Assembly: GCA_025454895.1 (NCBI GenBank)
Contig: JALONO010000044.1
Span: forward strand, 1-34,736
Direction of reading: 5' to 3'
DNA length: 34,736 bases
Source of the DNA: Bernardetiaceae bacterium
GTDB lineage: Bacteria > Bacteroidota > Bacteroidia > Cytophagales > Thermoflexibacteraceae
Within the stretch, counting starts at the first letter, position 1, and every line of letters begins with the position of its first letter. A model generated the notes under the pieces. It was not told the origin of the DNA and made no database searches. It was given only the letters and a program-made list of their open reading frames with translations. The position numbers were made by a program, and so were the translations under genes. Below are positions 23,818 through 34,097 of the stretch, piece after piece.

Positions 23818-25014
23818 CTACTGATCGATTTTCACCAGGTCCAACCGGGTAAAGCTGAGGGCATCTTCGCGGGCTTGGGGGTTTTGCGGGTGGTTGTCTG
23901 ACAGGTAAAGGCCCGCTTTGGCCACAAAAGCGTTGTTGATGGCAAACCGATTGCGGGGCAATTTCACCTCGCCCAGTTTCTTAAAATCCTCCCCCACAAT
24001 GATAATGCTCACCTGCGGCGGGAACAAGCCCGTAGTGGGTAAAGCAGTGCCTGGCGGTAGCTCTTCACCCAAACTAGTGAACCAGTAGTACACCTCTTGA
24101 TAAGGGTCATAAAGCAGATTGCCAAACTGCGGGGTCTCCCACATATGCTTTACGTAACTATCCACAGCCATATCTTTGGGTTGGGGGGGCACTTCCTCAA
24201 AAAATCGGCTGCCTATCAAATGCTTATCCACTTGTTTGAAATCACGGGTAACATACAAATGCGGGTCGCCCAAAAAGGCATATACGTAGTTAACCCCAGC
24301 TTGCACATTGCTATATAAAGCATCTTTCCGGCCAACTTGCCAATAATCGCTAGGAAAAGTAACTGCCAAATATTCTACGCGATTTTGCCCTGTATCGATG
24401 GCCAGGCACAATGGCCACTCCAGGAGTTGGGCCTGGGTCATTTGGAGCCAACTGCCTACCGTTGTCATGGGCAACAATAACTCACCTTGCCTGATCATCA
24501 CCGGATTACGAAGACCTACGATAGTAGGAAAAGTACTCCGACCGGTACTTGTTATCGCATAATTGACCTTATTTTTAATCCGCCCTTCTTGATTTACATG
24601 GGCCAAAGAAAGCGTCGAACTAGCGGCTATGTACACGTTATCCAAGTCGCGCACGTAGAATCCCCGCATGTCCCCTACCCCGTCCGGGCCTTCTACTGCC
24701 ACTGGGATACGTTTGGCCAATTGCTGGTTGGCCAGGGTAAAAAACTGGATGTTGCCAGTTTGTCCCTTACCCCGGCTGAGATAAGCCAGGTACTCGCGAC
24801 CTGCCGAGTCGGTGTAAAGCGATAAAAATGGACTGTGGTTGGGCGTAGTGCTGTCAATGGCGAATATAAGTGGCTCATTAGCAATGCTTAAGTTGTACCG
24901 ATCAACTGGCTGGCTGTTGGTTTCCCTTTTTTCTTTTTCATTGCAAGCAAAAAGCAGCAAGACGCTTGTGATACACAGTGATATTTCTATGAATCTTCGG
25001 AATTTTCTTTTCAT
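23818..25014 (-). CDS. DUF4221-like lipoprotein (six-bladed propeller type)
   Basis: The protein has 398 residues. The lipobox LLLFAC (Cys at about 24) after a basic, hydrophobic N-terminus marks an inner- or outer-membrane lipoprotein. The body has repeated beta-strand segments such as IQFFTLANQQLAKRIPV, EGPDGVGDMRGFYVRDLDNVYIA and YAFLGDPHLYVTRDFK, which match the DUF4221/6-bladed propeller lipoproteins of Bacteroidota; EGPDGVG is typical. Function is unknown. The gene follows, on the same strand, a small Cys-rich exported peptide gene 67 nt upstream, with a terminator hairpin between them. Similar propeller lipoproteins are commonly paired with small leader peptides in this phylum. The family call is from memory of motifs and is moderately sure. 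Confidence 0.75.
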   Translation of the reverse strand: MKRKFRRFIEISLCITSVLLLFACNEKEKRETNSQPVDRYNLSIANEPLIFAIDSTTPNHSPFLSLYTDSAGREYLAYLSRGKGQTGNIQFFTLANQQLAKRIPVAVEGPDGVGDMRGFYVRDLDNVYIAASSTLSLAHVNQEGRIKNKVNYAITSTGRSTFPTIVGLRNPVMIRQGELLLPMTTVGSWLQMTQAQLLEWPLCLAIDTGQNRVEYLAVTFPSDYWQVGRKDALYSNVQAGVNYVYAFLGDPHLYVTRDFKQVDKHLIGSRFFEEVPPQPKDMAVDSYVKHMWETPQFGNLLYDPYQEVYYWFTSLGEELPPGTALPTTGLFPPQVSIIIVGEDFKKLGEVKLPRNRFAINNAFVAKAGLYLSDNHPQNPQAREDALSFTRLDLVKIDQ

Positions 25015-25035
25015 AAAAAATTGTTAAATAAAAAA

Positions 25036-25063
25036 TTGCCCAATATCGTATGATATCGGGCAA
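25036..25063 (-). terminator. Intergenic terminator between the peptide and the lipoprotein genes
   Basis: On the minus strand TTGCCCGATATC pairs with GATATTGGGCAA around an ATAC loop, with one G-U pair, then runs into TTTTTTATTT. On the plus strand the same position is an A-C mismatch, so the structure is better suited to minus-strand RNA. It should partly stop transcription after the peptide gene and give more peptide than lipoprotein. Confidence 0.75.
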
Positions 25064-25081
25064 TGCACCTTCCAGAATAAA

Positions 25082-25276
25082 TCAGTTGGGTGTAACAATC
25101 ACTGGATCGCAGCTTGTGCACATGGTGTTACCAGTTTTGGTACAGCCATCGGCAAGGCTAAAGAAACACGTTTCCCCACTATTGGCCTGGGCCTCATGGC
25201 TATTCTCTAAATAGGCAAAGCCCATAACTGTAGCTAACAATACGGCCGAAGCGATTTTTTTGATTTTTGCTTTCAT
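25082..25276 (-). CDS. Small Cys-rich exported peptide (64 aa)
   Basis: The ATG at 25274-25276 begins a 64-residue product: a basic start (MKAKIKKIAS), a hydrophobic stretch (AVLLATVMGFAYL) and a short mature part with four cysteines (ETCFFSLADGCTKTGNTMCTSCDPVIVTPN). The layout resembles NVEALA-type leader peptides of Bacteroidota, which are likewise encoded next to propeller or DUF4221 lipoproteins, but the NVEALA motif itself is not present. It may be secreted, processed and disulfide-bonded or otherwise modified. The function is unknown. A good promoter lies 36 nt upstream and a terminator immediately downstream, so it is probably expressed strongly as a short mRNA with read-through to the lipoprotein. 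A longer frame from TTG at 25339 overlaps the promoter and is rejected. Confidence 0.7.
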   Translation of the reverse strand: MKAKIKKIASAVLLATVMGFAYLENSHEAQANSGETCFFSLADGCTKTGNTMCTSCDPVIVTPN

Positions 25277-25311
25277 TGGTTTGGAAAGGTTTAATGGTGA
25301 AACTGATTGAG

Positions 25312-25339
25312 CAAACGTACCCCCCCCGCACATTACCAA
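25312..25339 (-). promoter_or_regulatory. TTG-N17-TACGTTTG promoter with an 8-G spacer tract
   Basis: On the minus strand TTG (25337-25339) and TACGTTTG (25312-25319) are 17 nt apart and fit the Bacteroidota promoter consensus. The spacer ends in eight consecutive Gs (plus-strand Cs at 25320-25327). A start near 25305 would leave a leader of about 30 nt before the peptide ATG. Gain or loss of a G would change promoter spacing. Confidence 0.5.
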
Positions 25340-27237: not shown

Positions 27238-27849
27238 ATGGGCATCTTAGAACGAAAAGAGCGCGAGAAGCAAGAGATGCGCGAGCGGATTTTGCACACG
27301 GCCAGCCAAATGTTTTTGGAAGAAGGTTACGACAAAACCTCGATCCGGGGCATTGCCGAGCGTATTGAGTATAGCCCGGCCGCTATTTACCTGTATTTCA
27401 AGGATAAGAACGAGATTTTCGTAGCCATCCACGACCGGGCGTTTGACCTGCTATTTAGCAAACTGGCCCAAGCTAACCTAGAGGCCAATCCCTTTGCCCG
27501 GCTTTGCCACATGGGGGGGCTTTTCGTCGGCTTTGCCCTGGAAAACCCCGAGTTGTACGACCTCATGTTCATTATGCGGGAACCGATGGATGCCCTGTGC
27601 CAGCGGGAGATGGACTGGGACAAGGGTTTTCGGTCGTTCAACTTCCTGCGCGAGACCCTGCGGGAGTGCATGGAGGCTGGGCTGATGAAACCGATGGACT
27701 TGGACGTGGCCGCCGTGAGTGTGTTCTCATTTGTGCATGGGGTTACCTCGCTCATTATCCGGGGGCGGTTTAAAATGTACCCCGCCGAGCAGCATCAGGC
27801 CCTGGTGGAGCAGTCGTTGCAAAATATGTTGGAGTTGATGCGGGCCTAA
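27238..27849 (+). CDS. TetR/AcrR family transcriptional regulator of the RND efflux genes
   Basis: The protein has 203 residues. The N-terminal helix-turn-helix is typical: RERILHTASQMFLEEGYDKTSIRGIAERIEYSPAAIYLYFKDKNEIF (about 16-62). The rest is a helical ligand-binding domain. TetR repressors usually leave their operator when a drug or metabolite binds. The gene is the first of four plus-strand genes (regulator, TolC, adaptor, RND pump) with a 76-nt gap to the next, the common arrangement for self-regulated multidrug pumps. The ATG at 27238 gives the family start. Ligand unknown. Confidence 0.92.
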   Translation: MGILERKEREKQEMRERILHTASQMFLEEGYDKTSIRGIAERIEYSPAAIYLYFKDKNEIFVAIHDRAFDLLFSKLAQANLEANPFARLCHMGGLFVGFALENPELYDLMFIMREPMDALCQREMDWDKGFRSFNFLRETLRECMEAGLMKPMDLDVAAVSVFSFVHGVTSLIIRGRFKMYPAEQHQALVEQSLQNMLELMRA

Positions 27850-27925
27850 TTAAGTTTAGACTAAAGCGAAAAATGTTGATTATCAAATATTTAATCATTT
27901 AAGTCCTCCCTTCGGAAAGTTTAGC

Positions 27926-29323
27926 ATGAAGACGTTTGCCTTGCCTTTTTTTCCAAGCTCGATCGGCCGATTTTTTGCCGGGGCGTGCCGCGCCATTTTT
28001 TTAAGCGCGATTTTTTGTGCCCCGGTGGCCGCTCAAAGCGTTGTGCTAGAGCAGTATGTGCAGCAAGGGTTGGCCCAAAACCAATCCATCCAACAACAAA
28101 ACTTTTTATTGGAGAAAAGCCTAGCCGCCTTGCAAGAAGCTCGTGGCTTGTTTTTGCCCACGGTGAGCGTGGGGGGCAGCTACACGTTAGCGGCCGGGGG
28201 GCGCAGCATTAGCTTTCCCATCGGCGACTTGCTCAACCCCGTGTACGCCACCCTGAACGAGATGACGCAGAGCAACCGGTTCCCGCAATTGGAAAACGTG
28301 AACGAGCAGTTTCTGCCCAACAACTTTTACGATGCCCGGCTGCGCACCAGCGTGCCCATCTACAACGCGGAAATCAACTACAACCGCCAGATCAAACGCG
28401 AGATGGTGAACTTGCAACAAGCTGAAATCCAGGTTTATAAACGTGAGTTGGTCAAAGAGATCAAAAAAGCCTACTTCCAGTATTTGCAGGCGGCGGAAGC
28501 GGTAAAAATCTACGACAACGCCTTGACCTTACTGGCCGAAAGCCGCCGGGTGAACGAGAGCCTGGTGCGCAACGGGGTGGCTAACGGCACCGTGCTGGCC
28601 CGCACCGAGGCCGAAACCGCGAAAGTGAAATCCCAGCGCACCGAGGCGGAAAATAACCGCCGCAACGCGGCCGCCTACTTCAACTTTTTGCTGGGCCAGG
28701 GCCTGGAAACCGCCATCCAGGCCGACAGCCTGGTAACCAGTGGCCGTGCCGAGTTTGCCGCCAACCTAGACACCGCCCTTGGCCCGCGCGAAGAACTGGC
28801 TAAGTTAGCCACTGCCAAAAGTATTGGCTTACTGAGCACGAAGTTAAGCCGCGCTGCTTGGCAGCCTAAATTGGGTGCCCAACTGGACCTGGGCAGCCAG
28901 GGTTTCAATTGGGCATTTAACAACACCTCGCGCTATGGGCTGTTGGGCCTCAGCTTTGATGTGCCCCTTTTCACGGGCGGGCGCAACCTGGCCAAAATAA
29001 AGCAGGCCGAAAAAGACCTGGCCGCCTTGAGTGCCCAAACTACCTATGTGGAGCAGCAACTGCGCCTTCAACTGCGCACTAGCCAAACGGCCTACCAGTC
29101 GGCTTTGGAGGTGTTCAATAGCACGCAGGGGCAGGTAACGGCCAGCCGCCGCTATTTGACCGATACCGAGAAACGCTACCGCATTGGCCAGGCCAACTAC
29201 ATCGAGTACCTGGACGCGCGCAACGAGTACACTAATGCCCAGTTGCAACAAAGCTTGGCCCGCTACACCGTGTGGGTCAAACTGGCCGAGGTGGAACGCG
29301 CCCAGGCCAGTTACGGGTTATAA
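27926..29323 (+). CDS. TolC-family outer-membrane efflux channel
   Basis: The protein has 465 residues with a long signal peptide (about 1-37, ending APVAAQ). The mature part shows the two-fold repeat of long helices and beta hairpins of OEP/TolC: first half around EARGLFLPTVSVGGSYT and KREMVNLQQAEIQVYKRELVKEIKKAYFQYLQA, second half around LSRAAWQPKLGAQLDLGSQGFNW and TDTEKRYRIGQANYIEYLDARNEYTNAQL. It forms the trimeric exit duct of the RND pump encoded by the next two genes. A 76-nt gap from the TetR gene and an 83-nt gap to the adaptor suggest one operon. Confidence 0.92.
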   Translation: MKTFALPFFPSSIGRFFAGACRAIFLSAIFCAPVAAQSVVLEQYVQQGLAQNQSIQQQNFLLEKSLAALQEARGLFLPTVSVGGSYTLAAGGRSISFPIGDLLNPVYATLNEMTQSNRFPQLENVNEQFLPNNFYDARLRTSVPIYNAEINYNRQIKREMVNLQQAEIQVYKRELVKEIKKAYFQYLQAAEAVKIYDNALTLLAESRRVNESLVRNGVANGTVLARTEAETAKVKSQRTEAENNRRNAAAYFNFLLGQGLETAIQADSLVTSGRAEFAANLDTALGPREELAKLATAKSIGLLSTKLSRAAWQPKLGAQLDLGSQGFNWAFNNTSRYGLLGLSFDVPLFTGGRNLAKIKQAEKDLAALSAQTTYVEQQLRLQLRTSQTAYQSALEVFNSTQGQVTASRRYLTDTEKRYRIGQANYIEYLDARNEYTNAQLQQSLARYTVWVKLAEVERAQASYGL

Positions 29324-29406
29324 AGCACTGGTCCCAGTTAAAACCCTCAAGTATTTCAATTAGCTCATTTTTAAATTTTTAAGAAGATTTTAACCCACCC
29401 GTTGCC

Positions 29407-30489
29407 ATGAAAACCACCCTTCGTTACTTGGCCTATTGGAAAATCACCTTGCCGTTTTTGGCGTTGCTGGCCCTGGCTTGGCTACTGGCGGGCTGCCATC
29501 AAAACCAGGCCGCTAGCCAAGCCAAAACCACCCTGGCCGATGTCGCCATCCCCGTGAAAACGGTGCCGGTGAGCCGCCAAACCCTGGTTCAGCCCGTGGT
29601 GGCTTCGGGCTTGCTGGCCTCCGAAACCGAGGCTAGGCTATCGTTCAAAACCGGGGGCATCATCCAAAAAATCTACGTGGGCGAGGGCGATGCCGTGCGC
29701 AAGGGCCAACTGCTGGCCGTGCTCAACCTTACCGAAATCAATGCTCAGGTAACCCAGGCCCAAGAAGGCTTAGCCAAGGCCGAGCGCGATTATCAGCGGG
29801 TAAAAAACTTGTATGCCGACAGTGTGGCTACGCTGGAGCAGTTGCAAAACACCACCACGGCCCTCAACGTGGCCAAACAGTCGGTGCAAATTGCCCAGTT
29901 TAACCAAGGTTACTCCGAAATCAGGGCCGTGGCCAGCGGCCGCATCGTGCGCAAGCTGATGAACGAAGGCGAACTGGCCGCCTCGGGTGCGCCAGTGTTC
30001 TTCATGAACGCCACCGGGCCGGCCAGTTGGGTGGTAAAAGTGGGCGTGGCCGATAAGGACTGGGTGCGCCTGCAACTGGGCGACCCGGCCACCGTGGGCT
30101 TTGATGCCCTGCCCGGCCAAACATTTCCCGCCAAGGTGAGCAGTTTGGCCCAGGGGGCCGACCCCACCTCGGGCTTGTATCAGGTGGAATTGAAACTTAC
30201 CGGCGGTGCCCCGCAACTGGCCACCGGTTTTTTTGCCACCGCCCAGTTAACCCCCAGCCGCCGCCCCCAGTACGTGGGCGTGCCCGTGGACGCGCTGGTG
30301 GAGGGCAACGGCGACCAAGCCTTCGTGTTTGTGCCCGTAAACGGCCAGGCCCAGCAACGGCCCGTGAAAGTAGCTTACCTGGCCCAAGGCCAAGCCATGA
30401 TTTACGAGGGGCTTACCGGCGACGAAACGGTGATCACCGATGGCTCGGCTTACCTAACCGACAAAGCCAAAATCATGCTTGCTAAGTAG
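29407..30489 (+). CDS. RND efflux periplasmic adaptor (membrane fusion protein), lipoprotein
   Basis: The protein has 360 residues. The N-terminus ends in a lipobox (LLAGC, Cys at about 30), so it is probably anchored in the inner membrane by lipid. Lipoyl-like halves (LSFKTGGIIQKIYVGEGDAVRKGQLLAVLN and GRIVRKLMNEGELAASGAPVFFM) flank an alpha-hairpin (EGLAKAERDYQRVKNLYADSVATLEQLQN), followed by beta-barrel and membrane-proximal domains. It links the RND pump to the TolC channel. A 512-nt gap containing repeats R1-F and R2 separates it from the pump gene, unusual within such an operon. Confidence 0.92.
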   Translation: MKTTLRYLAYWKITLPFLALLALAWLLAGCHQNQAASQAKTTLADVAIPVKTVPVSRQTLVQPVVASGLLASETEARLSFKTGGIIQKIYVGEGDAVRKGQLLAVLNLTEINAQVTQAQEGLAKAERDYQRVKNLYADSVATLEQLQNTTTALNVAKQSVQIAQFNQGYSEIRAVASGRIVRKLMNEGELAASGAPVFFMNATGPASWVVKVGVADKDWVRLQLGDPATVGFDALPGQTFPAKVSSLAQGADPTSGLYQVELKLTGGAPQLATGFFATAQLTPSRRPQYVGVPVDALVEGNGDQAFVFVPVNGQAQQRPVKVAYLAQGQAMIYEGLTGDETVITDGSAYLTDKAKIMLAK

Positions 30490-30601
30490 TAAATTTTCTT
30501 GCCGATTGCTTAATCCTAGCCGCTATTGTTTACCAGACAAGCAAAGGAGCGTAGGGTTTTTCTTACAATTTTTTTCTTTAGCTAACCCGGGAAAATGCGA
30601 T

Positions 30602-30850
30602 TAGTAATAGAATCAAGTAGCAATTGCGTGTTCCAGGTACAATAGACGGCTTGTATATTACCCGTAATTGGTTCGATATTAAGTTCCCTCCCCGCCGGGG
30701 TGGGTCAGGGTGGGGCCAAATAGAGCGGATTTTGAACGAAAATTTGAGCTTTCACCTAGTCAAATCTAATGGGCAGAAGTCTAATAAATGGTTGATAACC
30801 AAACAGAACAACCATTTAGTTATGTAATCATTTCATCGTATTAGTATAAC
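30602..30850 (+). repeat. Dispersed repeat R1, copy F, interrupted by an R2 insertion
   Basis: The left half (AATAGAATCAAGTAGCAATTGCGTGTTCC) and the right half (AAATGGTTGATAACC ... ATGTAATCATTTCATCG, then TTAGTATAAC) match other R1 copies; the middle is the R2 element at 30644-30782. It fills most of the gap between the adaptor and pump genes of the efflux operon, so transcripts of the operon must cross it. Unlike copies A, B, C and E it does not begin at a stop codon. Confidence 0.75.
30644..30782 (+). mobile_element. MITE-like element R2, copy 2, nested in repeat R1
   Basis: This 139-bp copy starts AGACGGCTTGTATATTAC and ends, reverse complemented, AGACTTCTGCCCATTAG, so the terminal inverted repeats have decayed more than in copy 1. 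The flanks AAT (30641-30643) and AAT (30783-30785) form a 3-bp duplication. The interior shares TTCCCTCCCCG, CAGGGTGGGGCC and TTTGAACGAAAATT with copy 1 but lacks its extra hairpin of about 44 nt. Confidence 0.65.
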
Positions 30851-31001
30851 TAGTTGATTATTAGTTTTTTTGATTTTAAAAATATTCTTTGTCTTGTTGC
30901 CAGATGAGCAGTTTTCTGAATGAACAGATCCGCCATCGGGTTTTCAGATTATTGCCTATAAAACCTTCGCTTTTGGCTCACCATTTTTCACCTCAACTTC
31001 C

Positions 31002-34000
31002 ATGAAAATTTCTGAATATTCGGTTAAGAACTACCAATTTACCTTGGTGATGTTTCTGGGCGTTTTGTCGTTGGGGGTTTATACCTTGTTTAATATGCCC
31101 CGAGGCGAAGACCCCGAAACCCATAGTCCGCAGTTTCCGGTAGTGGTGGTGTACCCCGGCACCAGCCCCGGCGATATGGAAGAGCTGGTGCTGGACCCAC
31201 TGGAGGCCCGCATCAGCGAATTAGAAGACTTGAAACGCATCCAGTCCACCGTGTATGACGGGGTGGCCGTGCTGCAAGTGGAGTTTGAATACACCGTGGA
31301 CGTGGAGAACAAATACCAAGAAATGGTGCGCGAGGTGAACGCCGTGCGGCAGGAACTGCCCGCCGATATTTACAGTTTGGAGGTGCGCAAGGTTACCCCC
31401 TCGGACGTGAACATTTACCAATACGCGCTGGTGAGTGAAAACGCCCCCTACCACGCGCTCAAAGCCCAAGCCGAAAGATTTGAGGAACAATTGGAAAAGG
31501 TAAAAGCCCTCAAAAAGGTGCAAACCTGGGGCTTCCCCAACGGCGAAGTGGAAATTGTGCTCGACATCGATAAAATGGCCCAGCAGAAAATTGCAGTGGG
31601 CCGCGTGATCGGGGCCTTACAGAGCAGCAACACCACCATCCCTGGGGGCAGCGTCAACGTCAATACCCGCAAGTTCAACGTAAAAACCAGCGGGGGCTAC
31701 CAAAACCTTGACGAAATCCGCAACACCATTGTGGCCAGCAACGGCAACAAAATCGTGTATTTGAAAGACGTGGCCCAGGTGCGCCAAGCCTACGAAGATG
31801 AGAAGTACCTGGCCCGCTACAACGGCCACCGGGCCGTGTTTGTAACGGCCGCCCAAAAAGACGGGCAGAATATTTTCAAAGTACGGGATCAGGTGGAGCC
31901 CATCGTGGCTCAGTTTGCCGAAAGCCTGCCCAAGAACATTGATTTCGTGAAGGTATTTGACCAAACCGCGAGCGTTGATAAGCGGCTCACCCGGTTCGGA
32001 ATCGATTTCGGCATTGCCATTTTGTTGGTGCTGGTTACCTTGCTGCCATTGGGCTACCGTGCCTCGGTAGTAGTGATGATCTCCATCCCGCTGTCGCTGG
32101 CCATCGGCCTAATCTTACTCAGTATTTTTGGCTTCACTATCAACCAGTTGAGCGTGGTGGGCATGATCATCGCCCTGGGCATTTTGGTGGACGACAGTAT
32201 TGTAGTCGTTGAAAATATTGAGCGCTACCTGCGCGAGGGCCATACCCGGGTGCAGGCGGCCATTTTGGCCTCCCGGCAAATTGGCCTGGCGGTATTGGGC
32301 TGCACGGCCACGCTTTGCTTCGCTTTTATGCCGCTTATGTTTTTGCCGGAGGCGGCGGGTGATTTTATCCGCAGTATGCCAGCGGCGGTGATTTTTACGG
32401 TCGTGGCCTCGCTCATTGTATCGCTCACCATTGTGCCGTTTCTGTCGAGCCGCTTGCTTTCCGAAAGCCACAGCCAGGAAGGTAACGTGTTCATGCGGGG
32501 GTTGCAGTGGATCATCAGCGGCTCGTTTAGCAAGGCCCTGCACTATGCGCTGGCCCACCCAATTATTACTTTACTGGTGGCAGCGGCCATTTTTGGCGGC
32601 AGTTTAACCCTCATTCCGTCGGTCGGTTTCAGCTTGTTCCCCAAGTCGGAAAAACCGATGTTCCTCGTCAACATCGAGACCCCGGTGGGCACTAATTTGT
32701 ATGCCACCAACCGGGTGGCCCGGTATGTGGACAGCGTGTTGCGCGCCCGCCCGCAGGTACGCCACATTGCCACCAACGTGGGGCAGGGTAACCCCCGTAT
32801 TTATTACAACGTGATCCCACGGGATGCGGCCGAGAATTTTGCCCAAATTTTTGTGCAGACCAACACCGAGCGCGCCAAGGAGAAGGTGGCCCTTATTGAC
32901 GAACTACGCACCACTTTTGCGCACTACCCCAACGCCAAAATCGAGGTAAAAGACTTTGAGCAAGGCCCACCGCTAGAGGCCCCGTTGGCTTACCGCATCC
33001 TGGGCGACAACCTGGATACCTTGCGCAGCCTGGCCGGCCGGGTAGAAGCCATGTTGCAGGCCACGCCGGGTACTATTTACATCAACAACCCGCTGAAAAC
33101 CCAGCCCACCGATTTTAAGGTGCGCATCAACAAGGACAAGGCCGGGCTGCTGGGCGTGCCCGTGGCCGAAATTGACCGCACCGTGCGCCTGGGCATCGCG
33201 GGCCTCAACGTGGGCAAGTACCGCGACGAGGCGGGCGAGGAGTATAACCTCAACCTGTCGTTGCCCCGGCAAGGCCCAGCCCAGGGCTACGAGGTGTTTG
33301 ACCAACTTTTCGTGAACAGCGTGCAGGGCACGGCGATCCCGCTGCGCCAACTGGCCGACATCCGCATGGAAAGCTCGCCCAACCAAATTCGGCACTTTGA
33401 CAAAACCCGGTTTGTAACCATTTCCTCGTTTTTGCAAACGGGCTACCTCACCGACAACGTGAATCGGGAATTTATTGAAAAATTAGCGGCTTTCCCCTGG
33501 CCCAAGGGCTACACTTACAGCGTGGCCGGCGAGCAAGAAAACCGCGAGCGCAGTTTTGGCGGCCTGGGCACCATCATCCTCATCACCGCGTTTGGGTTTT
33601 TCGGCATTTTGGTGCTGGAGTTCCGCACGTTCAAGAGCACCTTCATCGTGCTGTCGGTAATTCCGCTGGGGATCATCGGGGCCATCCTCATCTTGCTAGC
33701 CACTGGCAATACCTTTTCGTTCACGGCCGTGATCGGGCTAATCGCCTTGGTGGGCATCGAGGTCAAAAACTCGATCCTACTCGTGGATTTCACCAATCAA
33801 CTGCGGGAGGAGGGCATGCCCCTGGACCAGGCCATCCAAAAAGCCGGGGAGGTGCGGTTTGTACCTATTGTGCTCACGTCGCTCACCGCCATTGGGGGCC
33901 TCATCCCGTTGGTGTTGGAATACAGCCCGTTGTACTCGCCCCTGGCTTTGGTGCTCATTGGCGGCCTTATCAGTTCCACCTTGCTGTCGCGGTTGGTTAC

Positions 34001-34097
34001 CCCGGTAATGTACAAGTTGCTGCCACCGCGCATCAAGGCCCGGCCCGCTGCCCAGCCACCGGTGGCCACCCCGCACGACGAGGGGGTGCTGGTATAG
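31002..34097 (+). CDS. Efflux RND transporter permease subunit
   Basis: The 1031-residue inner-membrane protein has the 12-helix, two-large-loop layout of the AcrB family. The first helix lies in YQFTLVMFLGVLSLGVYTLF. The proton-relay aspartates are Asp397 and Asp398 in GILVDDSIVVVENIER, and the matching lysine is Lys922 in VGIEVKNSILLVDF. It pumps substrates from the periplasm or outer leaflet using the proton gradient, together with the adaptor and TolC protein encoded upstream. The relay motif and general layout fit drug/lipid pumps better than heavy-metal pumps, but substrates are not readable. The start ATG at 31002 gives the family N-terminus. The 512-nt upstream gap with mobile repeats could contain a second promoter. 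Confidence 0.95.
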   Translation: MKISEYSVKNYQFTLVMFLGVLSLGVYTLFNMPRGEDPETHSPQFPVVVVYPGTSPGDMEELVLDPLEARISELEDLKRIQSTVYDGVAVLQVEFEYTVDVENKYQEMVREVNAVRQELPADIYSLEVRKVTPSDVNIYQYALVSENAPYHALKAQAERFEEQLEKVKALKKVQTWGFPNGEVEIVLDIDKMAQQKIAVGRVIGALQSSNTTIPGGSVNVNTRKFNVKTSGGYQNLDEIRNTIVASNGNKIVYLKDVAQVRQAYEDEKYLARYNGHRAVFVTAAQKDGQNIFKVRDQVEPIVAQFAESLPKNIDFVKVFDQTASVDKRLTRFGIDFGIAILLVLVTLLPLGYRASVVVMISIPLSLAIGLILLSIFGFTINQLSVVGMIIALGILVDDSIVVVENIERYLREGHTRVQAAILASRQIGLAVLGCTATLCFAFMPLMFLPEAAGDFIRSMPAAVIFTVVASLIVSLTIVPFLSSRLLSESHSQEGNVFMRGLQWIISGSFSKALHYALAHPIITLLVAAAIFGGSLTLIPSVGFSLFPKSEKPMFLVNIETPVGTNLYATNRVARYVDSVLRARPQVRHIATNVGQGNPRIYYNVIPRDAAENFAQIFVQTNTERAKEKVALIDELRTTFAHYPNAKIEVKDFEQGPPLEAPLAYRILGDNLDTLRSLAGRVEAMLQATPGTIYINNPLKTQPTDFKVRINKDKAGLLGVPVAEIDRTVRLGIAGLNVGKYRDEAGEEYNLNLSLPRQGPAQGYEVFDQLFVNSVQGTAIPLRQLADIRMESSPNQIRHFDKTRFVTISSFLQTGYLTDNVNREFIEKLAAFPWPKGYTYSVAGEQENRERSFGGLGTIILITAFGFFGILVLEFRTFKSTFIVLSVIPLGIIGAILILLATGNTFSFTAVIGLIALVGIEVKNSILLVDFTNQLREEGMPLDQAIQKAGEVRFVPIVLTSLTAIGGLIPLVLEYSPLYSPLALVLIGGLISSTLLSRLVTPVMYKLLPPRIKARPAAQPPVATPHDEGVLV

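Follow-up and report, generated by a model that had tools for sequence, protein, structure and literature searches.

The locus described here raises the question of whether a short open reading frame (ORF) for a cysteine-rich peptide, placed directly ahead of a lipoprotein gene, is peculiar to one genome or part of a conserved system, and what such a pair might do. It lies at positions 23,818 to 25,339 of a 34,736-nucleotide stretch of DNA (the window; contig JALONO010000044.1 of assembly GCA_025454895.1) from a Bernardetiaceae bacterium of the phylum Bacteroidota. As shown below, the locus is one copy of a cassette family spread through the phylum, in which a peptide gene is followed by a hairpin and by the gene of a propeller lipoprotein of the DUF4221 family. 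The cassette is widespread and apparently undescribed; no description of this peptide-propeller system stands among the matches listed from the open-licence literature. Its parts in the window are as follows.

25082..25276, minus strand: gene of the 64-aa peptide, ATG at 25276, four cysteines
25184-25276, minus strand: leader part of the peptide gene, 31 aa, ending HEAQA (cleavage site by a simple rule)
25085-25183, minus strand: mature part of the peptide gene, 33 aa, four cysteines with spacing 7-7-2
25035..25064, minus strand: 13-bp hairpin with a loop of 4, then a T-rich tail, TTTTTATTTA, between peptide and lipoprotein
23818..25014, minus strand: DUF4221 beta-propeller lipoprotein, 398 aa, lipid-attachment Cys 24 (from Pfam and a predicted model)

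The initial annotation had proposed an exported-type peptide of 64 residues with four cysteines, then a strong minus-strand terminator and a propeller lipoprotein; the peptide, a hairpin at the place of the terminator and the lipoprotein were all recovered: the ORF at 25082-25276 has a leader that is basic and then hydrophobic, the exported type, and the 67-bp gap between the two genes contains the hairpin (25035-25064, z-score -4.98). An 85-aa ORF that starts at TTG and reaches 25339 is superfluous, because the ATG at 25276 already yields the peptide. The G+C content is 45% in the peptide gene and 49% in the lipoprotein gene, against 56% in the first 20 kb of the window.

The evidence for a family of such cassettes comes from the neighbourhoods of related lipoproteins. 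Within the order, 33 of 194 genomes have DUF4221, in 115 gene rows, as do 12 of the 292 genomes in a phylum sample. A peptide was counted where an ATG ORF of 35-130 aa lay on the same strand no more than 900 bp upstream, had a signal-like start and at least two cysteines after residue 20, and was not contained within a longer ORF, a rule fixed after inspection of 27 loci and before counting. After five rows had been left out for short upstream sequence, 50 of the 110 testable DUF4221 genes passed, with a gap of 0-250 bp in 48. Among 229 control genes, drawn from 26 control stretches of genomes with DUF4221, four passed, and the only one at 0-250 bp itself resembles a cysteine peptide ahead of a lipoprotein. 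The pairing thus exceeds chance (48/110 against 1/229); the initial annotation was to be given up if no peptide gene were conserved next to related lipoproteins, and the peptide gene is in fact kept there. In the 104 rows with both flanks, a peptide lies upstream in 47 and downstream on the same strand in seven, some of which may belong to the next cassette, and the corresponding counts on the opposite strand are 2 and 0. On the DUF4221 tree, presence of the peptide requires 25 changes, compared with 35.5 in shuffles (minimum 28). Contig C72 of genome G009, from the same family as the window, holds ten peptide-lipoprotein groups in about 30 kb, seven of them with DUF4221; G009 and G556 carry arrays of distinct cassettes, and two peptides stand ahead of one propeller in G009, in G049 and on contig C127 of the window's own genome (G000). 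Two records of Phocaeicola massiliensis from a plasmid search, at 22-24% identity, have no upstream peptide by the rule.

The hairpin belongs to the peptide-lipoprotein module. In the window its region folds at -19.4 kcal/mol, and 0 of 200 shuffles were as stable; 5 of its 13 pairs are G-C, and the stem and T run have the form of an intrinsic terminator. Among the cassette gaps of 20-250 bp (three of the 48, being under 20 bp, were left out), z was -2 or lower in 41 of 45 and -3 or lower in 37, as compared with 43 and 30 of 131 control gaps between co-directional genes (Mann-Whitney p 8e-13). The gap sequences differ among genomes, and therefore it is the structure, not the letters, that seems to be conserved. 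A known RNA element at the hairpin was also considered and rejected, Rfam giving only two sub-threshold matches, neither of them there.

Several findings suggest that the short ORFs are genuine genes. We calculated pN/pS (non-synonymous relative to synonymous differences per site) for eleven peptide pairs, in two of which synonymous sites were saturated. The three closest pairs between genomes gave 0.10, 0.21 and 0.21 and a pair within G009 gave 0.29, while seven more distant pairs (four within and three between genomes) ranged from 0.39 to 0.73. Purifying selection thus acts on some peptides, namely those of the three between-genome pairs. The number of cysteines after the predicted cut is even in 49 of 55 peptides, 33 of which have four; pN/pS and the pairing of cysteines in relatives together make a spurious ORF unlikely. 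The same observations bear on the possibility that the short ORF and hairpin are a mere leader and attenuator regulating the lipoprotein. Position, hairpin and shortness of the ORF would agree with such a role, but pN/pS of 0.10 to 0.21 in the closest pairs, the conserved signal peptide, the paired cysteines and the tandem peptides ahead of one propeller all argue against it, and we regard it as extremely improbable. Of the 23 peptides from the family to which the window belongs, 18 give a leader consensus of MKxKLKKxG followed by EAxA. The motif E[AVS]xA occurs in 16 of the 55 peptides, in 12 of the 23 from the window's family and in 1 of 47 control Sec proteins; against a first, smaller control (1/16) the difference was not significant (p 0.09). 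The C-termini after the last cysteine are alike and hydrophobic in the window (CDPVIVTPN), L077 (CLDPVIIIGG) and L063 (CLDDIVVTP), and also in L089. A phage defence or phage gene was rejected in the absence of any PADLOC or PHROGs match.

To which family does the peptide belong? None was recognised for its mature part by the initial annotation, which holds in that the window peptide has no match above a cutoff. The 55 peptides taken together match no Pfam family strongly (best E 0.022), and four touch DUF6520 weakly. The leader, however, resembles that of NVEALA (PF14055), and the window's HEAQA may be comparable with the E-A-L-A-like motif of that family. In a profile comparison, hhalign aligned the window peptide with NVEALA at probability 75.5 over 35 columns, in the leader only. 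Membership of NVEALA was rejected on the curated score cutoff (27 bits): the window peptide gave no match, and its genome has none over the cutoff. Since there is no model match and the alignment is confined to the leaders, the window peptide is NVEALA-like in layout, not an NVEALA member. Both comprise a short leader peptide with a cysteine-containing tail and a lipoprotein directly after, and the leader may in both have an E-A-x-A-like end; the window differs in its shorter leader and in that no signal peptidase gene was seen beside the peptide. Signal peptidase I genes do occur within NVEALA or DUF4221 neighbourhoods elsewhere (L221, 1-725; L196, 10549-11430).

NVEALA genes also share gap hairpins and arrays with the DUF4221 cassettes. 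Genome G422, of the same class as the window, has six NVEALA copies upstream of lipoprotein-like genes, one of them DUF4221, with an RND (resistance-nodulation-division) pump of the clade A described below and an adaptor (recognised by eye) nearby; NVEALA was found at E of 1e-5 or lower in 11 of 81 genomes sampled from the family of G422. Among 48 distinct peptides with the NVEALA motif, 38 of the 46 that were testable have a lipoprotein-like ORF no more than 300 bp downstream (at least 300 aa long, or cut off by the end of the locus). For the 23 gaps that measure 35 bp or more, z was -3 or lower in 16. The partners are propeller-type lipoproteins of TolB_like (PF15869), DUF5128 (PF17170) and, once, DUF4221. 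Therefore, the earlier suggestion that similar pairs of small leader peptide and propeller exist in Bacteroidota is borne out by NVEALA and its partners.

DUF6520 (PF20130) was considered too. Its small proteins bear a signal and many have four cysteines, as the window peptide has, but the match of the latter (E 0.061, 14.1 bits) falls below the cutoff of 25.4 bits and the genomic context differs, with MauE/DoxX-like and SusD-like genes (by eye) as neighbours in many loci, unlike the propellers of the window type; membership was rejected on both grounds. The small cysteine proteins of DUF6520 often adjoin MauE/DoxX-like membrane proteins (by eye; L169-L187, L191-L195), and these could perhaps form a parallel redox peptide system.

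The lipoprotein matches Pfam DUF4221 (PF13970) with E 2.3e-29 (103.4 bits, cutoff 23.4 bits), and Cys 24 is kept in 90% or more of the 44 sequences aligned. An AlphaFold2 model (pLDDT 90.8) finds propellers as its best structural matches, above all PDB 3s9j (Foldseek E 5.5e-27; profile E 2e-69), so that the protein is predicted to combine a 3s9j-type propeller fold with a lipoprotein signal. The 3s9j structure is that of BVU_1028 from Bacteroides vulgatus, which is like the window lipoprotein in family and fold; BVU_1028 is known as a solved structure only, and the comparison covers the protein itself. More distant relatives in fold include many propellers, among them the B12-binding surface lipoprotein BtuG2.

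Further clues come from the neighbours, which were counted around 79 DUF4221 loci, 37 with and 42 without a peptide, and in the 26 control stretches. A thioredoxin-like lipoprotein was found in 22 of the 37 peptide loci, in 8 of the 42 others and in none of the controls. It has no Pfam match; its model is confident, with ResA and TlpA as best fold matches (E near 1e-3), and an alignment of 30 of the 36 genes, chosen by length, contains three invariant cysteines, that of the lipobox and two with CxxC spacing in the first sequence. Such a partner, the cysteine-rich cores, the RND-type pump and the BtuG-like fold relatives would also suit a metal or redox ligand that the cell exports and the propeller then recaptures. 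Disulfides fit the even cysteine numbers better, and inspection of the 40 listed neighbour clusters by eye revealed no TonB-dependent receptor, a family search not having been made; we consider this alternative very unlikely. A GT1-like glycosyltransferase occurs in five of the peptide loci and in none of the others.

RND pumps lie in 14 of the 37 peptide loci and in 5 of the 42 others, and their adaptors (membrane fusion proteins, MFP) in 12 and 4, respectively; these counts include the window's own genes, without which the peptide loci give 13/37 for RND and 11/37 for MFP. Of the 26 control stretches, 2 contain an RND gene and one an adaptor, the latter being L146, whose contig also bears a cassette. 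A tree was made of 46 rows, with three genes entered twice and with the L223 and L225 pumps and all fragments shorter than 250 aa excluded. In it the cassette pumps fall into clades A and B, both supported at 1.0 and both apart from the other RNDs, the comparison sequences coming from loci of four genomes. Of 190 genomes, 30 gave one RND-B match each, and 28 of these have DUF4221 where 5.2 are expected (p 4e-26, kinship ignored); by genus the agreement is 17/18 (p 3e-13). The exceptions are G005 and G077, which have RND-B without DUF4221, and G000, G049, G053, G154 and G161, which have DUF4221 without an RND-B match (inclusion in the RND-B search was confirmed for G000 alone). In 19 of the 30 genomes no more than 25 kb separates RND-B from a DUF4221 gene, against about 0.77 expected. 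As a separate observation, cassettes in L027 (1-17149) stand between RND-A, MFP and RND-B genes of the same strand, and two genes of the DUF6734 type are interspersed.

The export partner foreseen in the initial annotation is thus found in part: in other genomes cassettes lie near an export-type pump of clades of its own, and in the window genome none was found. On the plus strand of the window, at 27238-34097, stand genes for a TetR-like regulator, a TolC-like protein, an MFP and an RND (names by eye except RND). The TolC-MFP-RND operon among them (27926-34097) was rejected as a dedicated exporter, because the closest company of its RND in the tree is an ordinary one from G009 and not clade A or B. 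The pair being present without a dedicated pump found in some genomes, including that of the window, it might be asked whether the peptide is not secreted at all but stays in the envelope, where it would serve the propeller lipoprotein as a small subunit or folding factor; the fixed order and spacing would agree with this. We hold this to be improbable, given the pump linkage, the two peptides before one propeller in G009, G049 and on C127, and a clade of 26 DUF4221 members that has no peptide.

Based on these results, we tentatively favour a cassette made of a secreted disulfide peptide and a dedicated propeller lipoprotein that protects the producer in an immunity-like manner, with export by a pump and switching by repeats, a reading that we regard as quite possible, though short of probable. 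The peptide would enter the periplasm by Sec, signal peptidase I would cut after HEAQA, and the mature peptide would fold with two disulfides. The hairpin behind the peptide may trim or protect the transcript, giving much peptide and little lipoprotein. The propeller lipoprotein would be the dedicated envelope partner of the peptide and would most likely bind and sequester it, protecting the producer much as an immunity protein does. A dedicated tripartite pump with two RNDs could carry the folded peptides from the periplasm in most of the genomes that have DUF4221; in the window genome some other pump would have to do so. Promoter repeats may switch the cassette on and off. A precedent for the serial action of Sec, disulfides and a tripartite pump is the enterotoxin STII, which is exported by Sec, acquires two disulfides in the periplasm and then leaves by MacAB-TolC, as stated in an excerpt of PMC5985334, and which indicates that these steps can act in series. 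STII differs in its pump, MacB being an ABC transporter where the cassette pump is an RND pair with no match in the window genome; the excerpted text mentions no propeller partner (PMC5985334).

The cassette probably serves chemical conflict or signalling between cells. For the latter, the peptide would be a pheromone-like signal and the propeller lipoprotein its receptor or presenter, each cassette sensing its own peptide. Similarity of the peptide cores correlates with that of the propellers (r 0.61, p 5e-4, permutation within genomes), the pump is of an export type, and the distant fold relatives include BtuG2, which binds a vitamin at the surface. In a tally of NCBIfam matches, given without cutoffs and possibly covering the leader only, the Phr secreted-inhibitor family appears in 2 of the 55 peptides (best E 2.2e-4), the AimP pheromone family in one (E 0.0031) and PhrK in one (E 0.072); the weak Phr and AimP matches, if anything, favour signalling. 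Antagonism with immunity is preferred because the lipoprotein has no visible part able to pass a signal across the membrane, because regulators are few among the neighbours listed (the only one recognised by eye in the 40 clusters is a MerR-like gene, in two loci), and because the cassettes vary widely, are patchily distributed and include propellers that have no peptide. Signalling is in our judgement unlikely.

Several observations weigh against the immunity-like reading. By the strict rule 62 of the 110 DUF4221 genes have no close upstream peptide, 26 of these forming the single clade mentioned above (support 0.78), and a relaxed look at the peptide-less genes adds only about four plausible peptides (by eye); the window's own genome has a DUF4221 gene on contig C29 with no upstream peptide by the rule. 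Leader similarity also correlates with the propeller (r 0.33), and therefore the correlation of the cores may only reflect joint duplication. The peptides show no visible killing domain, the charge of their mature parts varies between -11 and +4, and the few weak NCBIfam matches are to signalling peptides. Eleven RND-B genes have no DUF4221 gene within 25 kb; an RND-A-like gene adjoins RND-B in ten of these unlinked stretches (by eye; not in L319), and cysteine peptides lie near RND-B in three. Finally, the window genome, which is 95.6% complete, has no RND-B match, and its three RND genes fall outside clades A and B, that of the window's own efflux operon belonging to another clade; therefore export there would need a different pump, unless the dedicated one is encoded in the 4-5% that is missing.

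On a wider scale, the cassettes could represent an undescribed secretion and conflict system of Bacteroidota in which one pump, formed by the two divergent RNDs A and B, exports many different ribosomally made disulfide peptides, each with a hairpin and its own propeller that protects or recognises, and with switching by slippage of the promoter repeats; this we consider conceivable, though rather doubtful. If it is true, NVEALA, DUF4221, DUF5128, the TolB-like propellers, the thioredoxin-like lipoprotein and two RND clades would be parts of one peptide system, and the union of these orphan families leads to a direct test, namely whether the peptides are exported by the RND pair and whether a given propeller binds its own peptide alone. 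In a table for Bacteroides thetaiotaomicron in the excerpted part of PMC10434189, the locus numbers of a 6-bladed propeller (BT0664), of a signal peptidase I (BT0667) and of an RND adaptor (BT0669) lie close together, and these numbers suggest that a laboratory strain may carry a version of the system.

The proposed switching concerns three further features of the window, ahead of the peptide gene.

25312..25319, minus strand: candidate -7 box, TACGTTTG, beginning 43 bases ahead of the peptide ATG
25320..25327, minus strand: G8 tract adjoining the -7-like box on its upstream side, candidate phase-variation tract
25336-25339: TTGG, upstream of the G8 tract

The sequence TAnnTTTG, which we take to be the -7 consensus of Bacteroidota, occurs within 200 bp upstream in 13 of 45 peptides, 5.6 being expected from shuffles. 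The G8 tract beside the -7-like box suggests, from the DNA sequence, that the window cassette may undergo phase variation. Of 48 cassettes, 8 have simple repeats in the 300 bp ahead of their first peptide, compared with 1 of 374 control genes (p 1.3e-7); the count is 6 of 46 without the two cassettes of G000, and the control regions are partly coding DNA. As the test was prompted by the window itself, this enrichment counts as a lead only. Similar repeats stand ahead of other cassettes: on contig C127 of G000 a G10 tract touches TAAATTTG ahead of the first peptide, and on contig C84 a (TG)11 repeat begins 60 bp upstream.
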